Source: Methanofollis sp. W23 (lineage in GTDB: Archaea > Halobacteriota > Methanomicrobia > Methanomicrobiales > Methanofollaceae). From it: a DNA stretch of 64,000 nucleotides. Below the pieces are notes generated by a model. That model ran no database searches. It was not told the DNA's origin and was given only the letters and a program-made list of their open reading frames with translations. Both the position numbers and the translations under genes were made by a program. The stretch is taken from contig NZ_JAGGMN010000001.1 in NCBI RefSeq assembly GCF_017875325.1, positions 310,001-374,000 of the forward strand. The letters run 5' to 3'. Shown here one piece after another: positions 13,204-40,160 of the stretch; within the stretch, counting starts at the first letter, position 1; each line of letters starts with the position of its first letter.

Positions 13204-14481
13204 ATGCTTGAGTTGAAGTTCATCAGGGATCATCCTGAGGTCGTGAGGGCCGACCTCACGAAGAGGGGAGACGAGGAGAAACTTGCATGGCTCGACGACC
13301 TGCTGGAGAAGGACCGGCGGAGCCGCGAGATCCAGACTGAGGTCAACCGGATGCGGAGCCGGCGCAACAAGATCGGCCGCGAGATCAATGCCGCCAGGAA
13401 GGCGGGCGAGGACATCGCGCCCCTCCTCGAAGAGGCGTCCACCCTCCCGAAGGTGATCAAGGAGGCCGAGACCGAACTCGACGCGATCGACGAGCGGGTC
13501 CATTTCTATCTGATGCGGATCCCCAATATCCTCCACGAGAGTGTCCCGGTCGGCAAGGACGACACCGAAAACGTCGAGGTGAAGCGGTGGGGTGAACTGA
13601 AGGTTCCGGCGTTCGAGTTGAAGAACCACGGCGCCCTCGCGGTCGAGCATGACTGGGCCGACTTCGAGCGTGCGGTCAAGATCTCAGGGGCCGGGTTCTA
13701 CTTCCTCAAGGGCAACCTCGTCCTCCTGGACATGGCGCTGCAGCGCTATGCCCTCGACATGCTGATGGAGCGCGGCTACACTCCGGTCTCGCCCCCGTAC
13801 ATGATGAACCGGGCGGCGTACGAGGGGGTCACCGACCTCGCCGACTTCGAGAACGTGATGTACAAGATCGACGGCGAGGACGAGTTCATGATCGCCACGA
13901 GCGAGCACCCGATGGCGGCGATGTACAAGGACGAGATCTTCGAGGAGAAGGACCTCCCCCTGAAGTACGCCGGGATCAGCCCGTGTTTCAGGCGCGAGAT
14001 CGGCGCCCACGGGCTCGACACGAAGGGGCTCTTCCGTGTCCACCAGTTCACGAAGGTCGAGCAGTTCATCTATTGCAAGCCTGAAGACTCGTGGCAGTAC
14101 CATGAAGAACTCCTGGCCAATGCCGAGGCGTACTTCCAGGCCCTGGGCCTCCCGTATCATGTCGTCAACATCTGCACCGGCGATATCGGGACGGTGGCGG
14201 CGAAGAAGTACGACATCGAGGTCTGGATGCCTCGCGAGGAGCAGTACCGCGAGGTGGTCTCGTGCTCGAACTGCACCTCGTACCAGGCGGTGGGGCTCAA
14301 CATCAGGGTGCGCGACGCCTCTGACTTCACCTCCAAGCACCCGGTCCACACTCTCAACAGCACGGCGGTGGCGACCTCCAGGACGATCAGGGCGATCCTC
14401 GAAAACTATCAGCAGGAGGACGGCTCGGTCGTGGTGCCCGAGGTGCTCAGGAAGTACATGGGCGGCATCGAGACGTTGTAA
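13204..14481 (+). CDS. serS: Seryl-tRNA synthetase, bacterial-like type
   Basis: A 425-residue class II aminoacyl-tRNA synthetase that charges tRNA-Ser. Residues ~1-105 form the long antiparallel coiled-coil arm that grips the tRNA variable arm. The catalytic core shows motif 2 (CFRREIGAHGLDTKGLFRVHQF) and motif 3 (LNSTAVATSRTIRAILENYQ). This is the common type, not the rare zinc-containing methanogenic SerRS of Methanococcus and relatives. GAGGGAGAGAG directly upstream supports the ATG at 13204. A T-rich stretch after the stop probably ends transcription. Confidence 0.97.
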   Translation: MLELKFIRDHPEVVRADLTKRGDEEKLAWLDDLLEKDRRSREIQTEVNRMRSRRNKIGREINAARKAGEDIAPLLEEASTLPKVIKEAETELDAIDERVHFYLMRIPNILHESVPVGKDDTENVEVKRWGELKVPAFELKNHGALAVEHDWADFERAVKISGAGFYFLKGNLVLLDMALQRYALDMLMERGYTPVSPPYMMNRAAYEGVTDLADFENVMYKIDGEDEFMIATSEHPMAAMYKDEIFEEKDLPLKYAGISPCFRREIGAHGLDTKGLFRVHQFTKVEQFIYCKPEDSWQYHEELLANAEAYFQALGLPYHVVNICTGDIGTVAAKKYDIEVWMPREEQYREVVSCSNCTSYQAVGLNIRVRDASDFTSKHPVHTLNSTAVATSRTIRAILENYQQEDGSVVVPEVLRKYMGGIETL

Positions 14482-23739: not shown

Positions 23740-24771
23740 ATGAGAAAGTTGCTCAACACCTTATATGTCACCTCTCCAGAATCCTATCTTCTCAGAGATG
23801 GCGAAAATGTCATCGTTAAGGTCAGTGGCGAAGAGAAGTTCCGTATTCCTATTCACAATCTCGAAGGGATCGTGTGTTTTGGGTACATGGGCGCCAGCCC
23901 TCAGTTGATGCGGTTGTGTACCGACAATAATGTCGGTCTCTCTTTTTTGACTCCGTCGGGAAGGTTTCTGGCGCGGGTGCAGGGGCGAGTGCGGGGGAAT
24001 GTCCTGTTGCGACGGACACAGTATCGCACGGCGGACGACCAGGAAGCCTCCCTGGATATTGCCAGGGATTTAATCATCGGGAAGGTGGTGAACTGTCGAA
24101 CGGTCCTTGGGAGGAGTCTCCGCGATCATGCAGATGTCGTCAGGGGTGACCGGATCAGGTCGGCGGATGCGATGCTGATCGAGAACCTGCTGGGGGTTGA
24201 CGACTGTGCCAGCGCAGACACTCTCAGGGGTATCGAGGGGAACTGCGCAAAGTTCTATTTCGGCGTCCTTGATGAACTGATCCTCAAGCAGAAGGATGAT
24301 TTTTTCATCTCTGAACGGAACCGGCGCCCACCTCTCGACAACATGAATGCCCTGCTATCGTTCCTGTACACCCTGCTTGCCCATGACGTCGAGTCCGCCC
24401 TGGAGACGGTGGGGCTTGATCCCTATGTGGGGTTCTTCCATACTGACCGGCCTGGAAGGCCGAGTCTGGCACTGGATCTGATGGAAGAACTCCGGCCGTT
24501 CCTGGGGGACCGTCTGGCCCTGAACCTGGTGAATTTGAAGCAGGTGAGGGGGAACGATTTTCTCAAGAAGGAGAATGGGGCGGTGATCATGACGGAGAAT
24601 GGAAAGAAAAAGGTTCTCGCGGCCTGGCAGAAGAGGAAAGTGGACTCGATTACTCATCCCTACCTGAATGAGAAGGTACAGGTGGGGCTGGTCCCGTATG
24701 TACAGGCGATGCTTCTTGCCCGTTTCTTGCGGGGAGATATCGATGGGTATCCACCGTTCTTCATGAATTGA
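23740..24771 (+). CDS. cas1: CRISPR integrase Cas1 (type I-C)
   Basis: A 343-residue Cas1 that, with Cas2, cuts and joins new spacers into the array. The metal-binding active site is intact: Glu166 in LRGIEGNCAKFYF, His234 in GFFHTDRPGRPSLALDLMEELRP, and the acidic residues of that same helix (Asp246/Glu249). The N-terminal beta domain opens KLLNTLYVTSPESYLLRDGENV, the usual subtype I-C beginning. It is followed 10 nt later by cas2 and stands upstream of the leader. Unlike the usual I-C order, cas4 is not adjacent but ~11 kb away beyond the array. Confidence 0.97.
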   Translation: MRKLLNTLYVTSPESYLLRDGENVIVKVSGEEKFRIPIHNLEGIVCFGYMGASPQLMRLCTDNNVGLSFLTPSGRFLARVQGRVRGNVLLRRTQYRTADDQEASLDIARDLIIGKVVNCRTVLGRSLRDHADVVRGDRIRSADAMLIENLLGVDDCASADTLRGIEGNCAKFYFGVLDELILKQKDDFFISERNRRPPLDNMNALLSFLYTLLAHDVESALETVGLDPYVGFFHTDRPGRPSLALDLMEELRPFLGDRLALNLVNLKQVRGNDFLKKENGAVIMTENGKKKVLAAWQKRKVDSITHPYLNEKVQVGLVPYVQAMLLARFLRGDIDGYPPFFMN

Positions 24772-25368: not shown

Positions 25369-28300
25369 GTCGCACCCTTCACGGGTGCGTGGATTGAAAT
25401 AACGGAGGTGTTGGCACTCGCGGCGGAGCTGGCGGTCGCACCCTTCACGGGTGCGTGGATTGAAATCCCAGACCGCGAAAACGGCGCAGAAATCCGAGGT
25501 CGCACCCTTCACGGGTGCGTGGATTGAAATCGCATGAATTTCTCAGGATCGCTGTAATCCCCGTGTCGCACCCTTCACGGGTGCGTGGATTGAAATCGGG
25601 CGAACCTTCAGGACCTACAGTTCCTGGAGTCGTCGCACCCTTCACGGGTGCGTGGATTGAAATTCAAAAAACGACCCGATCACTCGCACCTGGAAGGGTC
25701 GCACCCTTCACGGGTGCGTGGATTGAAATTGGCGCGGCATCAGGACGTAGAGCGCACCAAGGAGTCGCACCCTTCACGGGTGCGTGGATTGAAATCTCTC
25801 AGACTGGGTTGAGTGGAAGAAGACGTGGTCGCACCCTTCACGGGTGCGTGGATTGAAATAGGAGCATGTCGGAGAAGTACATGTCTTGCGATGTCGCACC
25901 CTTCACGGGTGCGTGGATTGAAATTGCCGCGAAAGGTCCAAACCAGTGTGTGTCAGGGTCGCACCCTTCACGGGTGCGTGGATTGAAATTGTGATTGGGC
26001 GCTGCGCGGCAGTCCGCGCCGGGGTCGCACCCTTCACGGGTGCGTGGATTGAAATTGTGATTGGGCGCTGCGCGGCAGTCCGCGCCGGGGTCGCACCCTT
26101 CACGGGTGCGTGGATTGAAATGAGCCTGTTTCGTTTCCGCCGCCGCCAGGATCCCCAGTCGCACCCTTCACGGGTGCGTGGATTGAAATTATGGAGGTTA
26201 TGACTGGAAGATCGGGTCACAGGTCGCACCCTTCACGGGTGCGTGGATTGAAATTCGCGATCACCCGGGCGTGGTCGGCAGAGAGCCCATGTCGCACCCT
26301 TCACGGGTGCGTGGATTGAAATCGCCGACGACCACGCCTTCGCAAGGGCAGAGTGTCGCACCCTTCACGGGTGCGTGGATTGAAATGAGATCCGGCAGAT
26401 CACCCAACTCGAAAAAGATCGTCGCACCCTTCACGGGTGCGTGGATTGAAATCTCTGTTCTGTAGCCGAGAATGGTCCGGCGGAACTGTCGCACCCTTCA
26501 CGGGTGCGTGGATTGAAATGGTTCGGCGGCCCAGTAGTCCATCGACCAAAACGGTCGCACCCTTCACGGGTGCGTGGATTGAAATCAGCGACCCTTGATC
26601 GCGTCGTCGGTCCGACATCGTCGCACCCTTCACGGGTGCGTGGATTGAAATGCTTTCAGGCGCCGGGCGCCAGTAGGGCATGCGCCGTCGCACCCTTCAC
26701 GGGTGCGTGGATTGAAATCAGGATTCAGCCTCTGCACACCAGGCGTCCCTGGAGTCGCACCCTTCACGGGTGCGTGGATTGAAATTCAAAAAACGACCCG
26801 ATCACTCGCACCTGGAAGGTCGCACCCTTCACGGGTGCGTGGATTGAAATACCTCGACCTCGTCATCGGCCTTCGTCCCCTGAGGTCGCACCCTTCACGG
26901 GTGCGTGGATTGAAATACGCTCGGCACGAACCGGGGAAAACTCGGAGCAGGGTCGCACCCTTCACGGGTGCGTGGATTGAAATTTTTTCACCCTCCGCAC
27001 CGGGGAACGTTCCTACCGTCGCACCCTTCACGGGTGCGTGGATTGAAATGTATATCCCTGCTCAATCAATTTCTCGGCGAGATTGTCGCACCCTTCACGG
27101 GTGCGTGGATTGAAATCCAGTGGATCGCGAACCACCCCTCATAGGTGCCGCGTCGCACCCTTCACGGGTGCGTGGATTGAAATAGGCCGTCAGTCTCCTG
27201 ATCGCGGCGGCGAGGTCGTCGCACCCTTCACGGGTGCGTGGATTGAAATTGGCCCCTCCGACAATACTCCTGGAGCAAAATACGTCGCACCCTTCACGGG
27301 TGCGTGGATTGAAATTGAATATTTCAGAAAAGTATATATATCGTATCGGTGGTCGCACCCTTCACGGGTGCGTGGATTGAAATGGCGATCTGCTTGTTGA
27401 TGTTGTCCAGGGACGCCGTCGCACCCTTCACGGGTGCGTGGATTGAAATTGGAACTGGGTGGAGAAGATCGGCGCGGGCTTGAGTCGCACCCTTCACGGG
27501 TGCGTGGATTGAAATCGCTCGTCGAAGTCCTTCGCCTGCGTCCCGTTGACCGTCGCACCCTTCACGGGTGCGTGGATTGAAATGCACAGAGCCAGAGTTG
27601 GGACGAAACGACATGATGTCGCACCCTTCACGGGTGCGTGGATTGAAATCGGGTTGCGGTCGGGTGACGAATCCTCCCAATATGGTCGCACCCTTCACGG
27701 GTGCGTGGATTGAAATTGGTCAACAATCGGGATTCTGGGATTGCTCTGCTCGTCGCACCCTTCACGGGTGCGTGGATTGAAATTACATGGACGCGAACCT
27801 CTACGACGTCTGGAAAAGTCGCACCCTTCACGGGTGCGTGGATTGAAATGGGTTCTACTGGCTGACCGCCCTGTTCGGAGTCGTCGCACCCTTCACGGGT
27901 GCGTGGATTGAAATACTTCGGCCGGCGACTTGACGCCGCCGTGCTCTTGTCGCACCCTTCACGGGTGCGTGGATTGAAATGGTGTAGGGATCGGGTTCGG
28001 AGACTCCATCTGCAGGGTCGCACCCTTCACGGGTGCGTGGATTGAAATTGTGGGGCTAGGATATCCGAAGGGGAACAACAAGTCGCACCCTTCACGGGTG
28101 CGTGGATTGAAATCGAACGGATCTATCCGCGCCTCGACGCCGTGCCGCGTCGCACCCTTCACGGGTGCGTGGATTGAAATCCGCTTGAGCCCGGCTCCTG
28201 CTCCATGAAAATCGGCACGTCGCACCCTTCACGGGTGCGTGGATTGAAATGTCGACGCCCGCGACCTCGACGACGCGGCGAAACTGTCGCACCCTTCACG

Positions 28301-30054
28301 GGTGCGTGGATTGAAATATTTTAGCCCTATACTCTGCCGTATCCGCTCCAAAGTCGCACCCTTCACGGGTGCGTGGATTGAAATTCTGATCTGGATCTTG
28401 GATCAAGTACCCAGATCGTCGCACCCTTCACGGGTGCGTGGATTGAAATTCCAACAGCGGCAACACAGATCTCTCGACCTACGGTGTCGCACCCTTCACG
28501 GGTGCGTGGATTGAAATCTGGTCGGGCCCGAATCCGAACGCAGGCGGGCGGTCGCACCCTTCACGGGTGCGTGGATTGAAATTGAGAATAGGGGCGGCCC
28601 CACTTTGAGACACCCGAATGTCGCACCCTTCACGGGTGCGTGGATTGAAATTCCCGCTCAGCAGGCGCCTGGAAAGAATTCAACTGTCGCACCCTTCACG
28701 GGTGCGTGGATTGAAATATGAACCAACTCAACAACGAATCTCTGGACACCAAAGTCGCACCCTTCACGGGTGCGTGGATTGAAATGACGAGATACCGAAC
28801 CGCAGCCTCGGGGGAGACGCGTCGCACCCTTCACGGGTGCGTGGATTGAAATCATCCTCGCCGAAGTCGGCAGCCGACCACTCCCCCGTCGCACCCTTCA
28901 CGGGTGCGTGGATTGAAATCGCAGTTTGCCGAGGCCCTCACCGCCCTCGCCCCGTCGCACCCTTCACGGGTGCGTGGATTGAAATAACCACCGCAACCCG
29001 AGAGCAGAGCAGGTGATCCGGGAGTCGCACCCTTCACGGGTGCGTGGATTGAAATCAGTATCTGATCCAGCGCCACCTCGCCGAGCGCGTCGCACCCTTC
29101 ACGGGTGCGTGGATTGAAATGTTTCCGCAGGGCCGCCGCGCCGGGAGAACCTGGTCGCACCCTTCACGGGTGCGTGGATTGAAATTCCCCCTCCTGCCTG
29201 CCGCTGGAGGAGCCGGGGGGCGTCGCACCCTTCACGGGTGCGTGGATTGAAATCCGGATCGGGGGGGCCGCGTAATGCGTCGGGGTGTCGCACCCTTCAC
29301 GGGTGCGTGGATTGAAATGGGGCGGTGAGCTACTCGACGCGGGTCGCAGGGAGTCGCACCCTTCACGGGTGCGTGGATTGAAATAAAGGGTAGCTATGTC
29401 GGGATGCGGGGCACTGTGGAGTCGCACCCTTCACGGGTGCGTGGATTGAAATTCGCGAGGGTGACGAGCCCGGGATCCCAGGTCAGAGGTCGCACCCTTC
29501 ACGGGTGCGTGGATTGAAATCTCGCGCCCCGTATCGCGAGGAGGAGGAAAATCCCGTCGCACCCTTCACGGGTGCGTGGATTGAAATCAGGGCACCCGCG
29601 TCGAGGTCGTCGGGGATCTGCGTCGCACCCTTCACGGGTGCGTGGATTGAAATACCAATGAAGAAGAAAGTCCAAAGAGGGATCGCGTCGCACCCTTCAC
29701 GGGTGCGTGGATTGAAATCCTCCGCCGCCGGGATCCCCAGATCTCCCTCCTGCGTCGCACCCTTCACGGGTGCGTGGATTGAAATCAAAACCGGACCGTC
29801 GTATCGACGAGGAACTGTCCTGGTCGCACCCTTCACGGGTGCGTGGATTGAAATGGCTCCGATCATCTTTTCCAGTTCTTCGGGAGTGTCGCACCCTTCA
29901 CGGGTGCGTGGATTGAAATTCGAACGGATGACGCGCCCCGTCCAGCGCGCCGCGTCGCACCCTTCACGGGTGCGTGGATTGAAATAGATCGACGGAGTTG
30001 ATCGACGCGAGAGGGGAGCCGCGTCGCACCCTTCACGGGTGTGTGGATTGAAAT
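25369..30054 (+). CRISPR. Type I-C CRISPR array, 71 repeats, 70 spacers
   Basis: The 32-bp repeat opens GTCGCACCC and closes GTGGATTGAAAT; CGCACCC and GGGTGCG pair as a 7-bp stem around TTCAC, and the ATTGAAAT tail would form the crRNA 5' handle. I counted 71 full repeats with 32-38-nt spacers (mostly 33-36). All read identical except the last (30023-30054), which has GTGTGG for GTGCGG and marks the leader-distal end. Spacers 25990-26023 and 26056-26089 are identical; 25664-25697 and 26786-26818 share 33 nt. No spacer was seen to match other parts of this window by eye. The repeat is of the kind found with I-C systems, in agreement with the flanking genes. Confidence 0.98.
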
Positions 30055-30206: not shown

Positions 30207-30227
30207 GATGTAAGATTCGTGCCCGAT

Positions 30228-32411
30228 ATGGCGTATTATGCTCACACTACAAAAAATCCAGATAAATCCGACTGGCAACCCCTCAAAGCCCATCTGATAC
30301 ACGTTGCAGACCTCGCGTCGGGCTTCGCACAGAATTTCGGTGCCGGGGAGTTTGCATATGCCGGAGGTCTGCTGCACGACCTCGGAAAATATTCACCTGA
30401 ATTTCAGAGACGCCTGGAAGGTGCCCCCGTCGGTGTCGACCATTCCACCGCCGGCGCACTGGAGGCACGGTCCCGCTACCATCCTGCCTACAGCCGGATC
30501 CTGGAATATATTGTCACCGGTCATCATGGGGGACTTCTCAATTATGGGAGCCCCGAGAGCGGACTGGAAGAGCGGCTTCAGAAATCATATGTCCCGGATT
30601 ACTCGGCCTATAGTGAGGAAATCTCAGTCCCCGACCTGCATGGGGCCCGCATCGCCGCGCAGCCTCTCCAGAACACCGTTGGGTTCACGTTCTCATTCTA
30701 CACCCGCATGCTCTATTCGTGCCTGGTCGACGCCGACTCCCTGGATACCGAAGCATTCACCAGCCCTGAAAAGTCCGCGCTGAGAGGCCACTACGACCCG
30801 TTCGACCTCCTCTCCAAAAAATTCGAGGACCACATGGATGAGGTGCAGGCAGGTGCCGAGGAGAGCGGGATCAACCGGTATCGACACTCGATCCTGGAGC
30901 AATGCAGAAAAAAAGCGACTCTTCCACCGGGGATGTTTACTCTGACCGTCCCCACCGGCGGAGGGAAGACCCTCTCGTCCATGGCATTTGCCCTGGACCA
31001 CCTGAAACAGCACGGCCTGCAGAGGATCTTCTATATCATCCCGTACACCAGCATCATTGAGCAGAATGCCAGGGTGTTCAGAGATATCTTTGGTGGCCGG
31101 AACGTGCTGGAACATCACAGCAACTTCGATCCCTCGAAGGTCCTGCCCGAAGAGGACGCTTCGACAGAGGAGACACTCAGGCTCTCGTCAGAGAACTGGG
31201 ACATGCCCATTGTGGTCACCACCAATGTCCAGTTCTTTGAGTCGCTCTTCTCCAGCAGACGGTCCAGGTGCAGAAAACTGCACAACCTGACAAAGAGTGT
31301 GATCATCCTTGACGAGGCCCAGATGCTCCCGACAGAGTATCTGAAACCCTGCCTTGCGACACTCGCTGAACTCGTCAGGAATTATGGTTCGACGGTCGTC
31401 ATCTGCACGGCGACCCAGCCGAAACTCGGCGACCTGCTGGACGAAACCCTCAGCCCGATTGAGATCACCGATTCGCCGGAAGAATTGTATGAGGCCTTCA
31501 GGCGGGTGCGGGTGCACGACCTCGGTGAGATGGACGACGTCGCCCTCGTAGACCGACTGCGGGCGCACCCTCAGGTGCTGTGCATCGTCAACACTAGGAA
31601 CCACGCGAAGAACCTCTACGACTCCCTCAAAGGGTCGGGGGCGTGCTACCACCTCAGCGCCAGGATGTGCCCGGCGCACCGGAGTGCGGTCCTGGCCGAG
31701 ATCAAAGTGCAGCTGGAAGCAGGTGTTGAGTGCCGCGTCATCTCGACCCAACTCATCGAGGCCGGGGTGGACATCGACTTCCCGGTGGTCTACCGGGCGA
31801 TGACCGGCATCGATTCCATCGCCCAGGCGTCGGGCAGGTGCAACCGTGAGGGGAGGCTGGAGTCAGGTGAGGTCTATCTCTTCATGTCCACCGAACCCCA
31901 TGGCCGGGCGACCGGCTGGCAGCGACGGGTCGCCGAGATTGGGGAGATGATCCTCGATACCACCGATGACCCGCTCTCTCTCCCTGAAGTGGCGGAGTAC
32001 TTCCAGAGGCTCTATTTCTATGAAGGAGACGACGGGCTTGACCGGAAAAAGATCCTCTCATGCCTTGAAGACGGGGGGAGAAGGCTTGAGTTTCCGTTTG
32101 AAGACGTCGACGCCGCATTCAGGATCATCGAGAGCGGTACAAAAGAGGTCATCGTTCCCTATGATGAGAATGCAAGATCGCTGATACAGGAACTCAAGAG
32201 TACCCATTCTCCATGGGAAGTCGCCCGAAGACTTCAGCCCTATACGGTCAGCGTCTATGCCAATGAGTTCAGAGATCTAGAGGACGCGGATGCCCTGGAG
32301 TCTGTTGGCGGTCGGTTTTTCGTACTGAAAGATACTGCGAGTTACTCTGAGGAAACAGGACTATTATATCGCAAATTTTATGGATATGATGGCTCACTAT
32401 TGATGACTTAG
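30228..32411 (+). CDS. cas3: CRISPR helicase-nuclease Cas3 (HD plus DExH)
   Basis: A ~727-residue interference protein that unwinds and degrades target DNA once Cascade binds. The N-terminal HD nuclease shows HDLGKYSPEF (His-Asp), VDHSTAG and TGHHGG. The helicase part has Walker A VPTGGGKTLS, a DEAQ box (ILDEAQMLP), motif III CTATQP, and motif VI QASGRCNREGR. Length and domain order match subtype I-C. ATG 30228 gives the usual MAYYAHTT start; a GTG at 30219 would add three residues. First gene of cas3-cas5-cas8c-cas7-cas4. Confidence 0.97.
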   Translation: MAYYAHTTKNPDKSDWQPLKAHLIHVADLASGFAQNFGAGEFAYAGGLLHDLGKYSPEFQRRLEGAPVGVDHSTAGALEARSRYHPAYSRILEYIVTGHHGGLLNYGSPESGLEERLQKSYVPDYSAYSEEISVPDLHGARIAAQPLQNTVGFTFSFYTRMLYSCLVDADSLDTEAFTSPEKSALRGHYDPFDLLSKKFEDHMDEVQAGAEESGINRYRHSILEQCRKKATLPPGMFTLTVPTGGGKTLSSMAFALDHLKQHGLQRIFYIIPYTSIIEQNARVFRDIFGGRNVLEHHSNFDPSKVLPEEDASTEETLRLSSENWDMPIVVTTNVQFFESLFSSRRSRCRKLHNLTKSVIILDEAQMLPTEYLKPCLATLAELVRNYGSTVVICTATQPKLGDLLDETLSPIEITDSPEELYEAFRRVRVHDLGEMDDVALVDRLRAHPQVLCIVNTRNHAKNLYDSLKGSGACYHLSARMCPAHRSAVLAEIKVQLEAGVECRVISTQLIEAGVDIDFPVVYRAMTGIDSIAQASGRCNREGRLESGEVYLFMSTEPHGRATGWQRRVAEIGEMILDTTDDPLSLPEVAEYFQRLYFYEGDDGLDRKKILSCLEDGGRRLEFPFEDVDAAFRIIESGTKEVIVPYDENARSLIQELKSTHSPWEVARRLQPYTVSVYANEFRDLEDADALESVGGRFFVLKDTASYSEETGLLYRKFYGYDGSLLMT

Positions 32412-32424
32412 GGAGGTGATTGGT

Positions 32425-33084
32425 ATGGGATTTGGAATTTGTTTAAAAGTCTGGGGAGACTATGCCTGCTTCACGCGCCCTGAGATGAAGGTCGAGCGGG
32501 TGAGTTATGACGTGATGACGCCTTCGGCGGCACGAGGTGTCCTTGAGGCGATCTACTGGAAACCTGCGATCTGCTGGAAGATCGACAGGATCCATGTCAT
32601 AAACCCGTTCAAGTACGACAACATCCGCAGGAATGAAATTCTCGGAAAGATCCCTGCAACAAAAGTGAAGTCCGCCCTCAAGGGCAAGGACGTCACGCTT
32701 TCTCAGGACCCGAATGAGAACCGTGTCCAGCGGGCCTCTCTTCTGCTCCGTGATGTCTGTTACTGCATTGAGGCGCACTTCGAACTGACCGAAAAAGCGG
32801 GGTCTGAGGACACGCCTGAGAAGCACTACAATATTGCGCTCAGGCGGATGAGACGAGGACAGTGTTTCCACCATCCATATCTTGGGTGTCGCGAATTTCC
32901 CGCTCAGTTCGAACTTGTCGAAGGAGAAGTGCCTTCTTCAAGTCATCAAGGGGAGAGGGATCTTGGGTTCATGCTCTATGACCTCGATTTTGCCGACGAT
33001 ATGCGGCCGGTCTTCTTCAGAGCCAGGATGGTCGACGGCGTCATCGATGTCAGGGAATGTATAGGTGCAGGAGGGGTCTCGTGA
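32425..33084 (+). CDS. cas5: Cas5c, crRNA-processing endoribonuclease of Cascade I-C
   Basis: A 219-residue RAMP protein. Subtype I-C has no Cas6; Cas5c cuts pre-crRNA at the base of the repeat stem and then stays on the 5' handle. Visible family marks are the opening GICLKVWGDYACFTRPEMKVERVSYDVMTPSAARG, the VQRASLLLRDVCYCIEAHFEL core, HYNIALRRMRRGQCFHHPYLGCREFPA, and the C-terminal FFRARMVDGVIDV. GGAGGTGA seven nt upstream fixes ATG 32425 over the earlier in-frame ATG. Its stop overlaps the GTG start of cas8c. Confidence 0.96.
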   Translation: MGFGICLKVWGDYACFTRPEMKVERVSYDVMTPSAARGVLEAIYWKPAICWKIDRIHVINPFKYDNIRRNEILGKIPATKVKSALKGKDVTLSQDPNENRVQRASLLLRDVCYCIEAHFELTEKAGSEDTPEKHYNIALRRMRRGQCFHHPYLGCREFPAQFELVEGEVPSSSHQGERDLGFMLYDLDFADDMRPVFFRARMVDGVIDVRECIGAGGVS

Positions 33085-34991
33085 TCATTCAGGCCCTCTG
33101 CCGGTATTATGATATCTTAGATCAGGACGAGAGCGTGAAGATTGCCAGACCTGGGTACAGCCAGGCAAATGTCTCGTTCGCCCTCGTCCTCTCTGATGAC
33201 GGTGAGGTGACGCATATCGTCGACCTCAGGAGCGATGATAAGAAGCCGAGGCCGCAGGAGATGGATGTACCCCTCCACTCCCCTCGCGCCAACGGCATAG
33301 TCCCATATTGCACATGTGACAATGCGAAGTATGTCTTTGGCGTCGAGAAACTGAAGGTCAAAGAGTTTGAGAAGAAGATCGCAAAGAAGGCTAAAAAAGG
33401 CGGTCCGCAGGAGGCTTCGGTTCTTGAGAAGAATGACAAAGAGGTTGTCCTGGTCTCTCCGCGTTCCAGGGAGTGCTTTGAGGCCTTCAAGATCCTTCAT
33501 CATCAGGTGTTCGACGGCGTGGATGACGCTGGTGTCAGGAGTTTCCTGAAGTTCCTGGACCGGTGGAACCCTGCATCGTTCCTCAACCACCCAAAGGTCC
33601 TCCAGTACAAGGACGAGATCCTTGATGGCGGGAACTTCGTCTTCGAGTGCAGAGGAAACTACCTGCACAGGAACGGCGCGGTTCGGCATGCCTGGGAGGA
33701 TTATTTCTCGGATGAGGCTGACGGCGCCCAGGTTGTTGCTCAGAGTCTGGTGAGCGGGCAGGACGAACCGATCGCCAGACTGCATCAGAAGATCAAGGGG
33801 GTGGTCGGTGCTCAGAAGGCGGGGGCCTCGCTGGTCAGTTTCAATGACGACGCCTTCAAGTCATATGGGAAAGACCAGAGTTACAACGCCCCGGTCGGCG
33901 AGACCTCGATGTTCAAATACACGACGGCGCTGAACCATCTTCTTGCGCATCGGGAGAACCGGATAGGTATCGCCGATACGACGACGGTCTTCTGGGCAGA
34001 GACAGAGGACCGGACCTGTGAAGACCTGGCACGCTTCCTGATGAACCCCCGCGAGGAGGAGGCCGATCCCGCCGACGATGCACCTGAAGACGGTGCGAAG
34101 GTTCGGGATAAAAAAACACGCAAACTGGTCGAAGACGTTCTCAAGAAAGTGAGGGCTGGCCAGAAGATCAATCAGGCAGATATCCATACCGACCCGGAGA
34201 CGAACTTCTACATCCTTGGGCTCTCCCCCAACAATGCGAGACTTGCGGTGCGGTTCTGGTATATGGACAGTTTTGGAAATTTTGTTGCAAGGGTTGGCCG
34301 TCACCACCTGGATATGGAGATCGTCAGAAGTGATTTCAGCCCGAAATATGTCTCGATCTCCCGGTTGTTGAAAGCGACCCTCCCGAAGGGGTCGAAAGAT
34401 CAAAAATCGAACTCAAATGTTCCAAAGGTCTCGCCACTTCTCGGCGGTCTGGTCATGAATGCGGTCCTGAAAAACCAGCCCTATCCGATCCAGATGTACA
34501 GTGCGGTCCTGGATCGCGTGAAGGTGGGGCGGTCGATCGATTCGGTTCAGGCCGGGTTTATCAAGGCATATCTGCTGAGACTGAGCCGGGCCGGTGGAAC
34601 GAAATTAAAGGAGGATTTGATTACTGTGAGTTTGAATGAAGAGAGTCCTGATGTGCCGTATCGTCTTGGAAGGCTGTTTGCAGTCCTTGAGAAGGCACAG
34701 AATGATACGAACAGAGAGATGAAGAGCACCATCAACAGCAAGTACTTCAGCAGTGCGTCGTCGACGCCTGCCGTGGTATTCCCGGTCCTGCTCAAACTTG
34801 CACAGCACCACATCGCCAAGTCTGAGTGGGGGTTCAAGTCGAGCCAGTCTATTGAAGAGATCCTGTCGGGAGTTGACGAGTTCCCTGCATATCTGAACCT
34901 TGAAGAGCAGGGAATGTTCATGCTCGGTTATTATCATCAGCGCAAGGCATTTTTCCAGAAGAAAGAGGAGACTCCGGTTGAGGGGGCGTAA
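33081..34991 (+). CDS. cas8c: Cas8c (Csd1), large subunit of Cascade I-C
   Basis: A 636-residue large subunit that recognises the PAM and helps open target DNA. The family opening IIQALCRYYDILDQD...ARPGYSQANVSFALVLSDDGEV is clear, as are VPYCTCDNAKYVFG, FKYTTALNHLLAHRENRIGIADTTTVFWAE and the C-terminal MLGYYHQRKAFFQKKEE. GTG 33081 overlaps the cas5 stop and has GGAGGGG 5 nt upstream, so it is chosen over the ATG at 33057. In many I-C systems an internal start in this gene yields a separate Cas11c small subunit; the part from about codon 510 onward is where such a start should be sought. Confidence 0.95.
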   Translation: MIIQALCRYYDILDQDESVKIARPGYSQANVSFALVLSDDGEVTHIVDLRSDDKKPRPQEMDVPLHSPRANGIVPYCTCDNAKYVFGVEKLKVKEFEKKIAKKAKKGGPQEASVLEKNDKEVVLVSPRSRECFEAFKILHHQVFDGVDDAGVRSFLKFLDRWNPASFLNHPKVLQYKDEILDGGNFVFECRGNYLHRNGAVRHAWEDYFSDEADGAQVVAQSLVSGQDEPIARLHQKIKGVVGAQKAGASLVSFNDDAFKSYGKDQSYNAPVGETSMFKYTTALNHLLAHRENRIGIADTTTVFWAETEDRTCEDLARFLMNPREEEADPADDAPEDGAKVRDKKTRKLVEDVLKKVRAGQKINQADIHTDPETNFYILGLSPNNARLAVRFWYMDSFGNFVARVGRHHLDMEIVRSDFSPKYVSISRLLKATLPKGSKDQKSNSNVPKVSPLLGGLVMNAVLKNQPYPIQMYSAVLDRVKVGRSIDSVQAGFIKAYLLRLSRAGGTKLKEDLITVSLNEESPDVPYRLGRLFAVLEKAQNDTNREMKSTINSKYFSSASSTPAVVFPVLLKLAQHHIAKSEWGFKSSQSIEEILSGVDEFPAYLNLEEQGMFMLGYYHQRKAFFQKKEETPVEGA

Positions 34992-34994
34992 ATT

Positions 34995-35846
34995 ATGAGT
35001 GAGGTTATCAAGAATCGGTATGAGTTTGTACTGCTGTTCGATGTCGAGAACGGGAACCCGAACGGCGATCCCGACATGGGCAATATGCCGCGGATCGACC
35101 CGCAGACCGGACACGGCATCGTGACTGATGTCTGTCTCAAGAGGAAGATCAGGGATTATGTGGACCTTGTCAGGGACGGCGTTCCAGGGTATGAGATCTA
35201 TGTCAGGTCAGGCGCCGTCCTCAATGACCAGCACAAGAGGGCCTATGACTATCTCGGGATGGAACCCTCCAAGAATAAACCCACTGACTCGAAACTGACC
35301 GAGTTCATGTGCGAGAATTTCTTTGACATCAGGACATTCGGTGCCGTGATGACGACTGAAGTGAACTGCGGGCAGGTGCGGGGGCCGGTGCAGATCAACT
35401 TTGCCAGGAGCATGGACCCGGTCTTCCAGCAGGAGGTGACGGTCACCAGGTGTGCGGTCACCAATGAGAAAGATGCAGAAAAGGGCCAGACGATGGGCAA
35501 GAAGCAGATGGTGCCCTATGCGCTGTACCGTGCCGAGGGCTACATCTCTGCTCACCTGGCCCAGAAGACGACCCGGTTTAACGAAGACGACCTGGACCTG
35601 CTCTGGGACAGTCTGGTCAATATGTTCGAGCACGACCACTCGGCGGCGCGTGGGAAGATGTCTGCACGCAAACTGATCGTCTTCAAGCACAAGAACGCGC
35701 TCGGGTGCTGTCAGTCTCACCTCCTCTTTGATGGGGTGAAGGTGGAGCGTCTCTCCGGTGATCTCCCGCCGCGCTCGTTCGGCGATTACCGCGTCACCGT
35801 CTCCGACGACGTCCCTGACGGCGTTGAGTTGATCGAAAAATTATGA
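34995..35846 (+). CDS. cas7: Cas7c (Csd2), Cascade backbone
   Basis: A 283-residue RAMP protein that polymerises along the crRNA spacer. Typical features: NRYEFVLLFDVENGNPNGDPD (first RRM strand and the GNPNGDP loop), LKRKIRDYV, the FFDIRTFGAVMTTEVNCGQVRGPVQ segment, and RGKMSARKLIVFKHKNALG near the C-terminus. GAGGGGG upstream, overlapping the cas8c end, supports ATG 34995. Its stop overlaps the cas4 start (ATGA). Confidence 0.97.
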   Translation: MSEVIKNRYEFVLLFDVENGNPNGDPDMGNMPRIDPQTGHGIVTDVCLKRKIRDYVDLVRDGVPGYEIYVRSGAVLNDQHKRAYDYLGMEPSKNKPTDSKLTEFMCENFFDIRTFGAVMTTEVNCGQVRGPVQINFARSMDPVFQQEVTVTRCAVTNEKDAEKGQTMGKKQMVPYALYRAEGYISAHLAQKTTRFNEDDLDLLWDSLVNMFEHDHSAARGKMSARKLIVFKHKNALGCCQSHLLFDGVKVERLSGDLPPRSFGDYRVTVSDDVPDGVELIEKL

Positions 35847-36529
35847 TCCAGAAAAGATATGCCGACGACGAGTTGCTTTCGTTGTCAGGCATACAGCACT
35901 TCTCTTTTTGTAAACGGCAATGGGCCCTGATTCATATCGAACGCCAGTGGGAGGACAATCTGCGGACGACGGAAGGCCACTTCTTGCATGAACGGGTGGA
36001 CGACCCCTATTTTACGGAGAGCCGGGGCGATGTCGTGATCTCGCGGGCGTTTCCCCTGGTGTCGTATGCGCTCGGGTTCTACGGGGTGGCAGACGTGATC
36101 GAGTACACGCGGTCGAAAGAGGGTATCGCGCTGCCCGGTCACGAGGGCCTCTGGACGATACGCCCGATCGAATACAAGAGGGGCAGGCCGAAGGTCGACG
36201 AACGCGACGAGGTCCAACTCTGCGCCCAGGCGATGTGCCTCGAAGAGATGTTCGGTGTTGAGATCAGGTCAGCCGATTTTTATTACCATGAGATTCGGAG
36301 ACGGGTGCCCCTCGACCTGACCGATGCATTGCGGAACCATGTCTGTGCTCTCTCTGAAGAGATGCACGACCTGTTCAGGAAGGAGAAAACCCCTGCCGCT
36401 GAAAAATCGCGGGCCTGCAGACTCTGCTCTCTTGTCGATCTCTGCGTCCCGAAGTTGACGACAAAACGTCGTTCTGTCAGGAGATATGTCAGGAACCATG
36501 TGAGAGACGCGTGCGAGGGCGATCTCTGA
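35843..36529 (+). CDS. cas4: Cas4 exonuclease (type I-C)
   Basis: A 228-residue PD-(D/E)XK nuclease with an iron-sulfur cluster that trims prespacers and selects the PAM end for Cas1-Cas2. The cluster cysteines are Cys23 (HFSFCKRQWAL) and the C-terminal CRLCSLVDLC. The nuclease motif appears as FYGVADVIEY...RPIEYKRGRPKVDERDEVQLCAQAMCLEEM (Asp, then E-Y-K, then the Q-x-x-x-Y/A RecB-like motif). It is the last gene of the effector operon and lies at the far side of the array from cas1-cas2, although its product should work with them. Confidence 0.95.
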   Translation: MIQKRYADDELLSLSGIQHFSFCKRQWALIHIERQWEDNLRTTEGHFLHERVDDPYFTESRGDVVISRAFPLVSYALGFYGVADVIEYTRSKEGIALPGHEGLWTIRPIEYKRGRPKVDERDEVQLCAQAMCLEEMFGVEIRSADFYYHEIRRRVPLDLTDALRNHVCALSEEMHDLFRKEKTPAAEKSRACRLCSLVDLCVPKLTTKRRSVRRYVRNHVRDACEGDL

Positions 36530-37190: not shown

Positions 37191-37523
37191 ATGCAAATTC
37201 CAGACCAGTGGGTGGGGGCGTTGGTGGTCGGACTCATCATACTGGTATTGGGGCAGTTGGTGCTGTCATGCCGGGCATACTATCAATACAAAGATGATGT
37301 TCGGAATCAGATCGATGGAAAGATCGGGAACATCGCCACCTCTCTAGAGAACCTGAACGCCAAAATTGAGAACTGCACCATCCGGATCGAGAACATCTAT
37401 GCACGGCTGGAATCCTTTGAAAACAAATACGACCGGGCCGACAAAGAACTCTGGAACAGAGCGGACCAGATCGAGCGAAGACTTCAGGATAAGAACTCAC
37501 AGCTGAAGGAAGAATTATATTAA
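37191..37523 (+). CDS. Small membrane-anchored coiled-coil protein
   Basis: A 110-residue protein with one N-terminal membrane helix (WVGALVVGLIILVLGQLVL) and then a charged ~75-residue helical region with heptad spacing (IGNIATSLENLNAKIENCTIRIENIYARLESFENK...IERRLQDKNSQLKEE), predicted to form a coiled coil in the cytoplasm or outside. No family recognised. A TATA-like CCCATAAATCC lies ~30 nt before the ATG. Confidence 0.6.
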   Translation: MQIPDQWVGALVVGLIILVLGQLVLSCRAYYQYKDDVRNQIDGKIGNIATSLENLNAKIENCTIRIENIYARLESFENKYDRADKELWNRADQIERRLQDKNSQLKEELY

Positions 37524-37608
37524 CATTGCAGACAACGTCTGACCTGTTGATGAAGGCCGGCCTCGCCGGTTCGGAAGACATATACAAAAAACGAAGAGGG
37601 GATGACTG

Positions 37609-37824
37609 ATGCCGTTGACGCCTGCACAATTTGAAAGGATGGAGTACCTCCTTGGCAAGGCTCAACATACTTCGTTAGCTCCAAATGAACAAGATGAATT
37701 ACGGCGTTATGTTGTCGTCGAGCAACCAGGGGCAGAGGACGTTACGTTTGAAACCGTCGTGACGCTGGGTCTGATCATCGTCGGGGCATATTTGCTATAC
37801 AAATATCTTGAGTCCGCAGCCTGA
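37609..37824 (+). CDS. Small tail-anchored membrane protein
   Basis: A 71-residue protein: a soluble helical part (LTPAQFERMEYLLGKAQHTSLAPNEQDELRRYV) and a C-terminal membrane helix (VVTLGLIIVGAYLLYKYL). The N-terminal helix pair of the form T-P-x-Q-x-E-R-x-x-Y-L-L...L-x-x-x-E-x-x-E-L-R-x is seen in small archaeal proteins of unknown function. GAGGGGATGA sits immediately upstream of the ATG. Possibly co-transcribed with the coiled-coil gene 85 nt upstream. Confidence 0.6.
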   Translation: MPLTPAQFERMEYLLGKAQHTSLAPNEQDELRRYVVVEQPGAEDVTFETVVTLGLIIVGAYLLYKYLESAA

Positions 37825-38082
37825 AAATGTCGCGCTGATTCACAGAACTTTTTTCATGCAGCATGACCGGGACGTGCTTCTGGTCCAGTGCTCCTTCCTA
37901 TTTTTCACACCCCTCTGCACAGCCACGACGATTCTCGGAAGCGAACATGAAGTGGGTGGTGCCGCCCCCGCCTATCTTTGTCGTGAGGGCCTGGGGGCAA
38001 CACCCCGGGCGCAAGAAGGCGGTGAAATTCTTCTGATGGGGGCATGGGTTCATCCAGATGAAGGAAGCGCCACCGATGACCA
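37825..38082. repeat. Intergenic GC-rich dispersed repeat copy
   Basis: At about 37960-38035 is a copy of the second GC-rich unit (GCCGCCCCCGCCTATCTT, then GGGGGCAACACCCCGGGCGC, then GGCGGTGAAATT), also found at 12720, 14845, 40912 and, inverted, at 21800 and 56130. No gene. Confidence 0.5.
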
Positions 38083-38112
38083 ACCTCCCGGTTATCAGCC
38101 GGGTGCACCACC
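38083..38112 (-). repeat. Detached 30-bp copy of the tRNA-Ile anticodon arm
   Basis: These 30 bases are identical to 38203-38232 inside tRNA-Ile(GAT), exactly 120 bp away and in the same orientation. The shared piece runs from the D-arm 3' side through the anticodon stem-loop (CCCGG-TTATCAG-CCGGG on the plus strand) to the base after the stem. Flanks differ on both sides, so it is not a whole pseudogene. It could be a recombinase attachment scar or a local duplication. Confidence 0.7.
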
Positions 38113-38176
38113 AGGAACAGCACTTCTGATACTTACGCGTAATAATCAGAGAAACAACAAAAACAAGGAAAAGCAA

Positions 38177-38249
38177 TGGGCCCGGTGCGACTCGAACGCA
38201 CGACCTCCCGGTTATCAGCCGGGTGCACCACCGACTATGCTACGGGCCC
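38177..38249 (-). tRNA. tRNA-Ile (GAT anticodon)
   Basis: Read on the minus strand, the acceptor stem is GGGCCCG...CGGGCCC, followed by discriminator A at 38177. The D arm, anticodon stem CCGGC/GCCGG-type with loop CTGATAA (anticodon GAT), and T arm GTGCG-TTCGAGT-CGCAC are complete. No CCA is encoded and there is no intron. 73 nt. Confidence 0.95.
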
Positions 38250-38384: not shown

Positions 38385-40160
38385 ATGGTGAAACGATACC
38401 TCCTTGGGAACGAAGCCATCGCCCATGCCTGCATCGAGGCCGGCATCGACTTCGCGAGTGGCTATCCCGGAACCCCGTCGTCCGAGGTGGTCGACACACT
38501 CAGGGCGCAGAAGGAGCGGGAGTTCTACATCGAATGGTCGGTGAACGAGAAAGTGGCCTTCGAGAACGCCCTCGCCGCATCCTGGTGCGGGCTCCGGTCG
38601 ATGGTGACCATGAAGCACGTGGGCCTCAACGTCGCCGCCGACCCCCTGATGACCAGCGCCTACACCGGGGCGAAGGGCGGGTTCGTCGTCCTCTCGGCCG
38701 ACGACCCCTACGCCCACTCCTCGCAGAACGAGCAGGACACCCGGCGCTACGCTCACTTCGCAAAGATCCCCTGCATGGTCCCCGCGAGCGTGCAGGAGGC
38801 GCACGACATGATGAAGGACGCCTTCGCCCTCTCCGAAGAGGTGGGCCTGCCGGTCCTCTTCAGGCCGACGACCAGGATCTGCCACTCCAAGGGCGACGTC
38901 GATCTGGCTGAAGTGAGCCAGGAACACCGCACCGGCGCTTTCGAGAAGGACCCGGCACAGTACGTCGTGGTCCCGGCGCACACCAGGATGCTCCACAAAC
39001 GGCTCAACGAGAAGCAGCCTGTCGTCAGGAAGGCCGTCCTTGACCTCGGCTACAACACTACCGAAGTCCGCGGCACGACTGCGGTCGTGGCCTGTGGGAT
39101 CGCCGCCTCCTATGTGCAGGAGGTGCTCCCGGCCGACGTCTCCTTCATGAAGATTGGGTGCTTCCCGGTCGACCCGGCCTGGATGGAAGAGTTTGTCCAG
39201 GCGCACGAGACCGTGCTGGTCATCGAGGAAGGCGCACCGGTCGTCGAAGAACGGCTCCGCCAGCTCTCCTGCGGCGTGAAGGTCTTTGGACAGATGGACG
39301 GGACCGTCCCGAAAGAGGGCGAGTTCTCCCCGGCTCTCGTTGCTGACGCAATGGTGCAGGCCGGGATTCTCCAGGCTTCACCCTTCCAGGCTCCCGCCGC
39401 CCCGGCCCCAGACCTCCCGCCCCGGCCCCCGATCCTCTGCGCCGGGTGCCCGCACCGTTCGGTCTTTTATGCGATCAAGCGGGCCTTCCCTGACGGCATC
39501 TACCCTTCAGACATCGGGTGCTACACCCTCGGCCTCCAACTCGGCACCGTGGACACCACCATCTGCATGGGCGCCTCGGTCACCGTCGGGAGCGGGATCG
39601 CCCACTCTGGTGAAGAACGGCCGGTCGTCGCCACCATCGGCGACTCGACCTTCCTCCACACCGGGGTTCAGGGGCTCCTCAACGCCGTATACAACAATGC
39701 CGAGATGACCCTCGTCATCCTGGACAACCGGATCACGGCGATGACCGGCCACCAGCCAAACCCCTGCACCGGTGAGACAGCGATGGGCGCAGCGAGTGTC
39801 CCGGTCTCCCTCGAAGCCCTCTGCCGGGCCTGCGGGGTGCAGTTCGTCGAGACCGTCGACCCCTACGACTTCACCGCCACCCTCCAGGCACTCAAGGAGG
39901 CGAAGGCGCGGCCAGGCGTCAAGGTGCTCATCGCCAAACAGGCCTGCGTCATCACCGCGAGACGGGCGAAGATCAGGCGGTGGCGCTACGTCGTCGACCC
40001 TGAGGTCTGCACCGCGTGCGGCGCCTGCCTCAGGTTCGGGTGCCCGGCCCTCGGGCGCGACGAGAATGACAGGGCCGTGATCAATGAACTCTGCAACGGC
40101 TGCGGGGTCTGCGCCGACCTCTGCCCCACCGGCGCCATCGGAAAGGAGGGACGGAAATGA
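38385..40160 (+). CDS. iorA: Indolepyruvate ferredoxin oxidoreductase, alpha subunit
   Basis: A 591-residue enzyme subunit that oxidatively decarboxylates aryl pyruvates (from Trp, Phe, Tyr) to aryl-acetyl-CoA with reduction of ferredoxin, or runs in reverse to make aromatic amino acids from aryl acetates. Order: pyruvate-oxidoreductase domain (GNEAIAHACIEAGIDFASGYPGTPSSE), then a TPP-binding domain (ICMGASVTVGSGIA...VATIGDSTFLHTGVQGLLNAVYN), then a C-terminal pair of 4Fe-4S motifs (CTACGACLRFGCPAL and CNGCGVCADLCPTGAI). Length is normal. It overlaps iorB by four bases. Confidence 0.95.
   Translation: MVKRYLLGNEAIAHACIEAGIDFASGYPGTPSSEVVDTLRAQKEREFYIEWSVNEKVAFENALAASWCGLRSMVTMKHVGLNVAADPLMTSAYTGAKGGFVVLSADDPYAHSSQNEQDTRRYAHFAKIPCMVPASVQEAHDMMKDAFALSEEVGLPVLFRPTTRICHSKGDVDLAEVSQEHRTGAFEKDPAQYVVVPAHTRMLHKRLNEKQPVVRKAVLDLGYNTTEVRGTTAVVACGIAASYVQEVLPADVSFMKIGCFPVDPAWMEEFVQAHETVLVIEEGAPVVEERLRQLSCGVKVFGQMDGTVPKEGEFSPALVADAMVQAGILQASPFQAPAAPAPDLPPRPPILCAGCPHRSVFYAIKRAFPDGIYPSDIGCYTLGLQLGTVDTTICMGASVTVGSGIAHSGEERPVVATIGDSTFLHTGVQGLLNAVYNNAEMTLVILDNRITAMTGHQPNPCTGETAMGAASVPVSLEALCRACGVQFVETVDPYDFTATLQALKEAKARPGVKVLIAKQACVITARRAKIRRWRYVVDPEVCTACGACLRFGCPALGRDENDRAVINELCNGCGVCADLCPTGAIGKEGRK

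Follow-up and report, generated by a model that had tools for sequence, protein, structure and literature searches.

The tRNA-Ile gene and its partial copy

The window analysed here is a 64-kb stretch of the genome of a member of the genus Methanofollis (genome G000, family f1; f1 to f5 are family codes). A functional tRNA-Ile(GAT) gene lies on its minus strand at 38177–38249 (ARAGORN; Rfam RF00005, 69.2 bits), and a 30-nt segment of this gene, 38203–38232, recurs exactly and in direct orientation at 38083–38112 (30 of 30 nt, spacing 120), as the original prediction stated. The segment corresponds to tRNA positions 18–47, comprising the 3' side of the D loop, the anticodon arm and the variable region. 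Since the tRNA gene is on the minus strand, the second copy, which has the same strand, lies downstream (3') of it, beginning 64 bp past its 3' end. The 90 bp separating the two copies thus consist of 26 bp of the 3' part of the tRNA gene itself and a T-rich 64-bp spacer (38113–38176, minus strand), whose fragment-proximal part resembles the 41-bp spacer seen in family f4. About 4e-9 to 4e-8 exact 30-mer pairs are expected in 64 kb under an independent-base model, and a chance origin of the repeat is excluded.

By its match to the tRNA and by homologous fragments in relatives, the 30-mer is the best-kept core of a longer 3' tRNA-Ile fragment, because the copy in relatives continues into the T arm and acceptor. 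The T arm and the 3' side of the acceptor (tRNA positions 48–73) survive in decayed form at 38057–38082 on the minus strand and are recognised from alignment match lines that are clearer in G005, G001 and the f4 genomes; in the window genome they retain little identity to the tRNA, and exact identity is limited to positions 18–47. The earlier observation that the flanks of the two copies are unlike is therefore correct for the window genome and does not extend to its relatives. ARAGORN finds 47 tRNA genes in the loci taken from this genome; of these, tRNA-Ile alone has a partial self-copy within 400 bp, and the only other self-matches above 20 of 30 bases involve four adjoining CAT-anticodon genes, all of them whole. 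These four genes (G000:C1:2713115-2713547), three of them at an exact 124-bp spacing, form a young tandem array.

The neighbour of tRNA-Ile on its other side, transcribed divergently, is an iorA-like gene (38385–40160, plus strand) of the indolepyruvate oxidoreductase alpha type, which we take to be iorA from its Pfam domains and which holds this position by synteny in f1, f2, f3, f4 and f5. On the 3' side the next conserved gene, presumably serS, is at 13204–14481 (plus strand), with 23.8 kb of variable DNA between it and the tRNA. The corresponding gap is 0.3 kb in G006 and 1.8–3.6 kb in six other f1 genomes in which the end of serS could be seen (G008, G011, G003, G002, G009 and G010); in the window it is filled with a type I-C cas cluster (cas5, cas8c, cas7 and cas4 by Pfam), a CRISPR array and the small gene pair p110/p71. 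The 3' side of tRNA-Ile thus collects accessory DNA. The CRISPR/cas spans are 25369–29985 and 30219–36529; the array, with 70 exact 32-bp repeats and 69 spacers (68 different) of 32–38 bp, sits between a cas1-like ORF at 23740–24771 (named by resemblance) and the cas3-like, cas5, cas8c, cas7 and cas4 genes. Different accessory genes occupy the interval in each f1 genome (small DNA-binding-like, membrane and HEPN-like ORFs by eye), making it a hotspot that has no tRNA repeats at its far side. Apart from the adjacent copy, no second tRNA repeat of at least 11 bp was found in the 25 kb downstream of the window tRNA; among 17 loci scanned, G104 has a 12-bp tRNA match at +1323 (shuffle maximum 10). 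One copy of a dispersed repeat, G+C-rich, hairpin-like and about 85 bp long, lies at 37961–38043; the repeat has 31 matches in this genome at E <= 0.01 (83 first-look candidates) and is present also in G001, G004 and G005.

The two small plus-strand ORFs upstream of the repeat, p110 (37191–37523; membrane/coiled-coil type) and p71 (37609–37824; 71 aa, with a membrane-type end), had been suggested to be remains of an integrated element. This suggestion finds no support: they are a patchily distributed accessory pair, present in 6 and 10 of 232 genomes and beside the tRNA-Ile fragment in 4 of 12 members of the genus, with no integrase beside the pair and no tRNA repeat at a far end, and in G099 they stand side by side on another contig away from tRNA-Ile. 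Their candidacy as phage genes was rejected as well, there being no Pfam match and only weak, coiled-coil-type PHROGs matches for p110 (best 1.2e-5, to a family of unknown function). A similar pair in G120 has no p110 homology by search.

An old fragment shared by two families

We compared 101 tRNA-Ile loci of the order, the window genome included, drawn from 232 genomes, and counted the fragment as present where a copy of at least 20 of the 30 bases lay 96–120 bp downstream of tRNA-Ile. By this measure the fragment occurs in 17 of 46 readable loci of f1 and f4 (20–30 of 30 bases), and in 0 of 54 loci outside these two families. The bearers are 5 of the 11 readable f1 members (G000, G001, G004, G005 and G011) and 12 of 35 f4 loci (G080, G078, G106, G102, G085, G024, G034, G075, G019, G014, G083 and G039); not among the counts are G007, with a contig that stops at the tRNA, and five f4 members (G081, G084, G091, G092 and G103) for which the locus was not retrieved. 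The other 29 of the 46 loci are without a fragment at this threshold, and decayed remnants can be made out by eye in G008, G077 and G094, a deletion running through the fragment in G077. On a tree of iorA, built by a quick method and with weak support at 17 of its 50 inner branches, bearers are scattered through both families.

All of these fragments lack the 5' part of the tRNA and share a 5' boundary at D-loop position G18. The 3' boundary lies near the tRNA 3' end in the best-kept copy, that of G106, which is identical at 52 of 56 bases over positions 18–73. The spacer between the tRNA and the position-18 fragment is 41 bp in f4 and 62–64 bp in f1, and no cargo separates tRNA and fragment in any of the 17 bearing loci. 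The copy in the window is an inherited, non-coding, old 3' fragment of tRNA-Ile and not a fresh scar. The original prediction had proposed that one arrangement common to all related strains, with no variable DNA, would speak for a simple ancient duplication; the arrangement is old, yet only some relatives have it, and the length of DNA past it ranges from 0.3 to 23.8 kb.

The spacers of the two families look homologous, and their resemblance suggests that the fragment probably has one ancestral origin, before f1 and f4 split. Their likeness, 17.3, compares with 13.96 (sd 0.82) in column-permuted controls and is reached by 0 of 300 permutations, the result being weaker when register is enforced (13 of 300 controls reach the value). 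We consider it highly improbable that the f1 and f4 fragments instead arose in separate events at an insertion-prone tRNA and are alike through site preference: at least three further independent fragments at tRNA-Ile (in G101, in G117 and in G027/G109) and the different spacer lengths would be in keeping with this, whereas the common boundary at position 18 and the spacer likeness, even allowing for the weaker register-bound test, are not.

Cargo-bearing insertions at the same tRNA

Insertions of the same design, with cargo, are present at tRNA-Ile in other members of the order. The clearest is in G101 (f4), where 13,595 bp (locus G101:C59:5500-22500) separate tRNA-Ile from a 48-nt 3' fragment comprising tRNA positions 26–73. 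This fragment is identical to the tRNA of a near relative, G097, and the working tRNA of G101 bears a slightly different 3' part. G097 provides the empty site: its trailer equals the flank past the G101 fragment over 1200 of 1200 bp, and the two genomes are identical at 1000 of 1000 bases upstream of the tRNA. As read from these alignments, the pair is a textbook picture of integration in which an empty site has survived. Within the insert, HmaA, HmaB and HmaC, the proteins of the Hma (helicase, methylase, ATPase) defence system, are encoded in one gene run, all with full-length matches to PADLOC models, and a gene for an Mrr-type nuclease (Pfam) lies on the opposite strand; this is a cargo of the relative and not of the window. 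It also contains one membrane protein and small ORFs that are ribbon-helix-helix-like by eye (one tested, no Pfam match), and no recombinase was recognised in it.

Two further cases come from f2. In G117 an insert of about 2.2 kb (G117:C150, between 1646 and 3922) carries one DnaJ-transglutaminase gene and ends in an exact 45-nt 3' fragment of tRNA-Ile (positions 29–73), about 2.2 kb from the tRNA; the alignment of the flank past this fragment with the trailers of G113, G116 and G118 begins at the first bases of the flank, and that with the trailers of G114, G115 and G119 at base 12 or later. In G027 and G109 a 0.65-kb insert with a SpoIIAA-like gene is bounded by a fragment of positions 36–72, matching at 36 and 33 of 37 positions. 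Identity to the tRNA thus starts at position 26 in G101, 29 in G117 and 36 in G027/G109, as against 18 in the f1 and f4 fragments. Taken together, these alignments indicate that the 3' half and anticodon arm of tRNA-Ile are a real insertion target in the order. The proposal that the anticodon arm serves as an insertion site is accordingly right for the locus, with the filled and empty sites (G101 and G097; G117 and G113, G116 and G118) lying in relatives and not in the window genome.

No tyrosine integrase was recognised in the inserts of G101, G117 or G027/G109. We searched for PF00589 in 47 genomes and then in 10, of which G027 was in both, and none of the 56 different genomes has a PF00589 gene linked to tRNA-Ile. 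Among the 47, 23 have an integrase and tRNA-Ile on one contig, with none closer than 39 kb and the nearest at about 39.7 kb (G076); the remaining 24 have no integrase on the tRNA-Ile contig, those present being on other contigs. The window genome has only two such genes, at C1:249606 and C1:1047274, 98 kb and 699 kb away, and G117, a genome that is 82% complete, has none. The 30-mer is found in 0 viral contigs and gives one match, of 77%, in a plasmid search. A phage origin for it was rejected, the phage matches being only to the 3' halves of phage tRNA-Asn genes, and a search of open-licence PMC papers found no literature on the tRNA-Ile fragment.

Islander genomic islands are recognised, according to PMC4383910, by the displaced 3' tRNA fragment of a tRNA-targeted island, with an interval of 2–200 kb that contains an integrase, and a subsite centred on the anticodon is among the known crossover sites in tRNA-targeted islands (PMC4383910). 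Like such islands, the window has an intact tRNA and a same-orientation 3' fragment downstream; unlike them, its copies are 64 bp apart (41–64 bp in relatives with this fragment), below the 2-kb limit, the interval has no integrase and no room for one, and little of the 3' end of the fragment remains in this genome. On length and on the integrase it therefore falls outside the Islander definition. At archaeal tyrosine-recombinase attachment sites that reach the 3' end of tRNA genes, the shared stretches are reported to be 40–50 bp for several archaeal integrases (PMC8371274), a length like the 45–48 nt of G117 and G101. The fragment resembles such sites in covering the anticodon loop and in reaching the 3' end in relatives, and differs from them in that identity in the window is 30 bp and that none of the genomes searched has a PF00589 gene linked to tRNA-Ile.

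Origin of the fragment and its significance

The explanation we favour, with about even credence, is that the window fragment was displaced from the 3' part of tRNA-Ile by an ancient insertion that has since lost its cargo. We infer that the f1 and f4 fragment arose as the G101-type insertions did. DNA bounded by a 3' part of tRNA-Ile would have inserted into the gene in an ancestor of Methanofollis and f4, rebuilding the tRNA and displacing the old 3' part (positions 18–73) downstream; the cargo would later have been lost, leaving 41–64 bp between the tRNA and the fragment, after which the 3' part of the fragment would have decayed freely and its core may have been kept tRNA-like by recombining with the functional tRNA-Ile some 100 bp away. 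Such an insertion explains the downstream side of the copy, its orientation, the missing 5' half and the trailer-like flank past the fragment. Post-fragment flanks are similar to the trailers of f4 genomes without the fragment (a likeness reached by 3 of 300 controls), whereas the spacers resemble neither these trailers (63 of 300 controls) nor, over all 11 f4 copies, the post-fragment flank (80 of 300 controls), as expected if the spacer is alien.

Several points count against an insertion. No cargo is present in any of the 17 genomes, so none of them displays the insertion as such; the site has no linked recombinase; and identity starts at position 18, more 5' than in the cargo-bearing cases (26, 29 and 36). 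Several fragment-free f1 members (G002 and G003, by eye) have spacer-like DNA directly 3' of the tRNA, which fits decay or deletion and speaks against a clean loss. In orientation and side, the window copy agrees with a displaced 3' tRNA fragment.

The main rival is a local duplication in the ancestor of f1 and f4, either of part of tRNA-Ile with its trailer (a unit of about 97–120 bp) or of a whole tandem gene that decayed to a 3' fragment, with no mobile element involved; we hold this to be possible, if rather doubtful. Tandem duplication of tRNA genes with decay of one copy is a known kind of event, and the window copy is like such a duplicate in being partial, promoterless, altered by accumulated changes and situated beside a functional gene. 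A duplication accounts for the tiny spacer, and the locus appears to gain and lose tandem copies. Whole tandem tRNA-Ile genes 274–411 bp apart are present in 6 of 35 f4 loci (G086, G076, G088, G089, G029 and G099; loci L065 and L070-L074), each gene with its own promoter type, of which there are two, and one of the two genes seems to have been lost again in some f4 genomes. In five single-gene type-B genomes (G024, G082, G097, G078 and G080), on which this observation rests, a decayed type-A promoter and a GGCCC-containing stub can be seen by eye at the place of tRNA 1. By alignment, tRNA-1 sequence is not above all shuffles in 13 of 14 type-B loci, the one that is, G095, having a window that runs off its contig.

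The spacer should resemble the flank past the fragment if a tRNA and its trailer had been duplicated. A weak likeness of this kind exists in four f4 genomes picked for their well-kept flank (G085, G024, G083 and G075; 19 of 300 controls), and the T-rich starts of spacer and flank agree in register in G085 and G024 (12 and 25 of 200 shuffles). Against this stand the absence of such likeness over the 11 f4 copies, the lack of a clear resemblance between spacer and tRNA trailer when all copies are taken, and the missing tRNA 5' part in every one. These flank controls are weak and partly conflicting, and the ranking of insertion over duplication could change.

The slow change of the core bears on a third explanation, that the anticodon hairpin is a selected element between convergent genes, an RNA or DNA site such as a processing signal, a terminator or a protein-binding inverted repeat, with its stem under selection. 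Parsimony steps per site were counted in fragment alignments of f4 (without G019 and G014, whose fetched stretch lacks iorA, and G077 and G094, too decayed) and of f1 (without G005 and G008). In f4 there were 3 steps at 10 stem sites, 6 at 9 on the D side, 13 at 7 in the loop, 21 at 20 in the spacer and 33 at 17 in the T arm; the f1 values were 2 at 10 for the stem, 2 at 7 for the loop, 20 at 20 for the spacer and 24 at 17 for the T arm. Compared with fourfold sites of iorA, at 1.17 (f4) and 0.64 (f1) steps per site, slow change is confined to the D side and stem. Within f4 the stem has fewer changes than the loop (3/10 against 13/7, p 0.0013), and in f4 and f1 together fewer than the spacer (5/20 against 41/40, p 0.0004); both p values treat steps as independent and were calculated once the pattern was already known. 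By eye, a short hairpin is also left in G008 after a deletion that took the loop.

We nonetheless regard a selected hairpin as improbable. Only one of five stem pairs changed on both sides, with 147 of 500 shuffles equal or better; 87.5% of stem cells are paired, compared with 85.7% in shuffled alignments; and the fold of the fragment region is no more stable than shuffles (z 0.64). With neither covariation nor unusual fold stability, we rejected a structured RNA element. The fragment is, moreover, missing at the 20-of-30 threshold from 29 of 46 f1 and f4 loci and cut by the deletion in G077, and a history of gene conversion yields the same pattern of steps. Recombination with the intact gene is the simpler reason for a tRNA-like core, and is the least secure part of the insertion account. 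It fits the loops of G080 and G078, which match the tRNA though their tree neighbours have changed loops; it leaves the uncorrected, changed loops of other copies unexplained, and the divergence of the loop from the tRNA in most f4 copies argues against frequent conversion there.

The remaining reading, a recent excision scar or second attachment site of a lineage-specific element private to the window genome, with 37191–37824 as its remains, draws on the exact 30-base identity and on p110/p71 lying beside the fragment in some members of the genus, and is largely refuted, leaving it very unlikely, by fragments with the same 5' boundary in G001, G004, G005, G011 and f4, the lack of a further tRNA repeat downstream, the integrase-free pair found off the tRNA in G099 and the empty search of viral contigs.

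Taken alone, the window repeat is an ordinary genome fossil, and its value lies in drawing attention to a tRNA gene used by integrase-less islands in relatives. In one order, tRNA-Ile has acquired DNA on at least three other occasions; empty sites are clear, and our searches recognised no tyrosine integrase in the inserts, one of them a whole anti-phage defence system. We offer tentatively the wider possibility that elements which bring cargo and a 3' half of tRNA-Ile, and have no recombinase of their own, use tRNA-Ile(GAT) as a common docking site across this order of methanogens, with the Hma system and its Mrr nuclease, the DnaJ-transglutaminase protein and the SpoIIAA-like protein as possible examples of such cargo. 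These elements might be mobilised in trans, or as circles by homologous recombination of the host at the 3' half of the tRNA, and the window fragment would be the fossil of an early one that may still serve as a second docking site. How integrase-less islands enter and leave methanogen tRNA genes thereby becomes a testable question, and it appears that a displaced tRNA fragment can outlive its cargo and stay recognisable across families.
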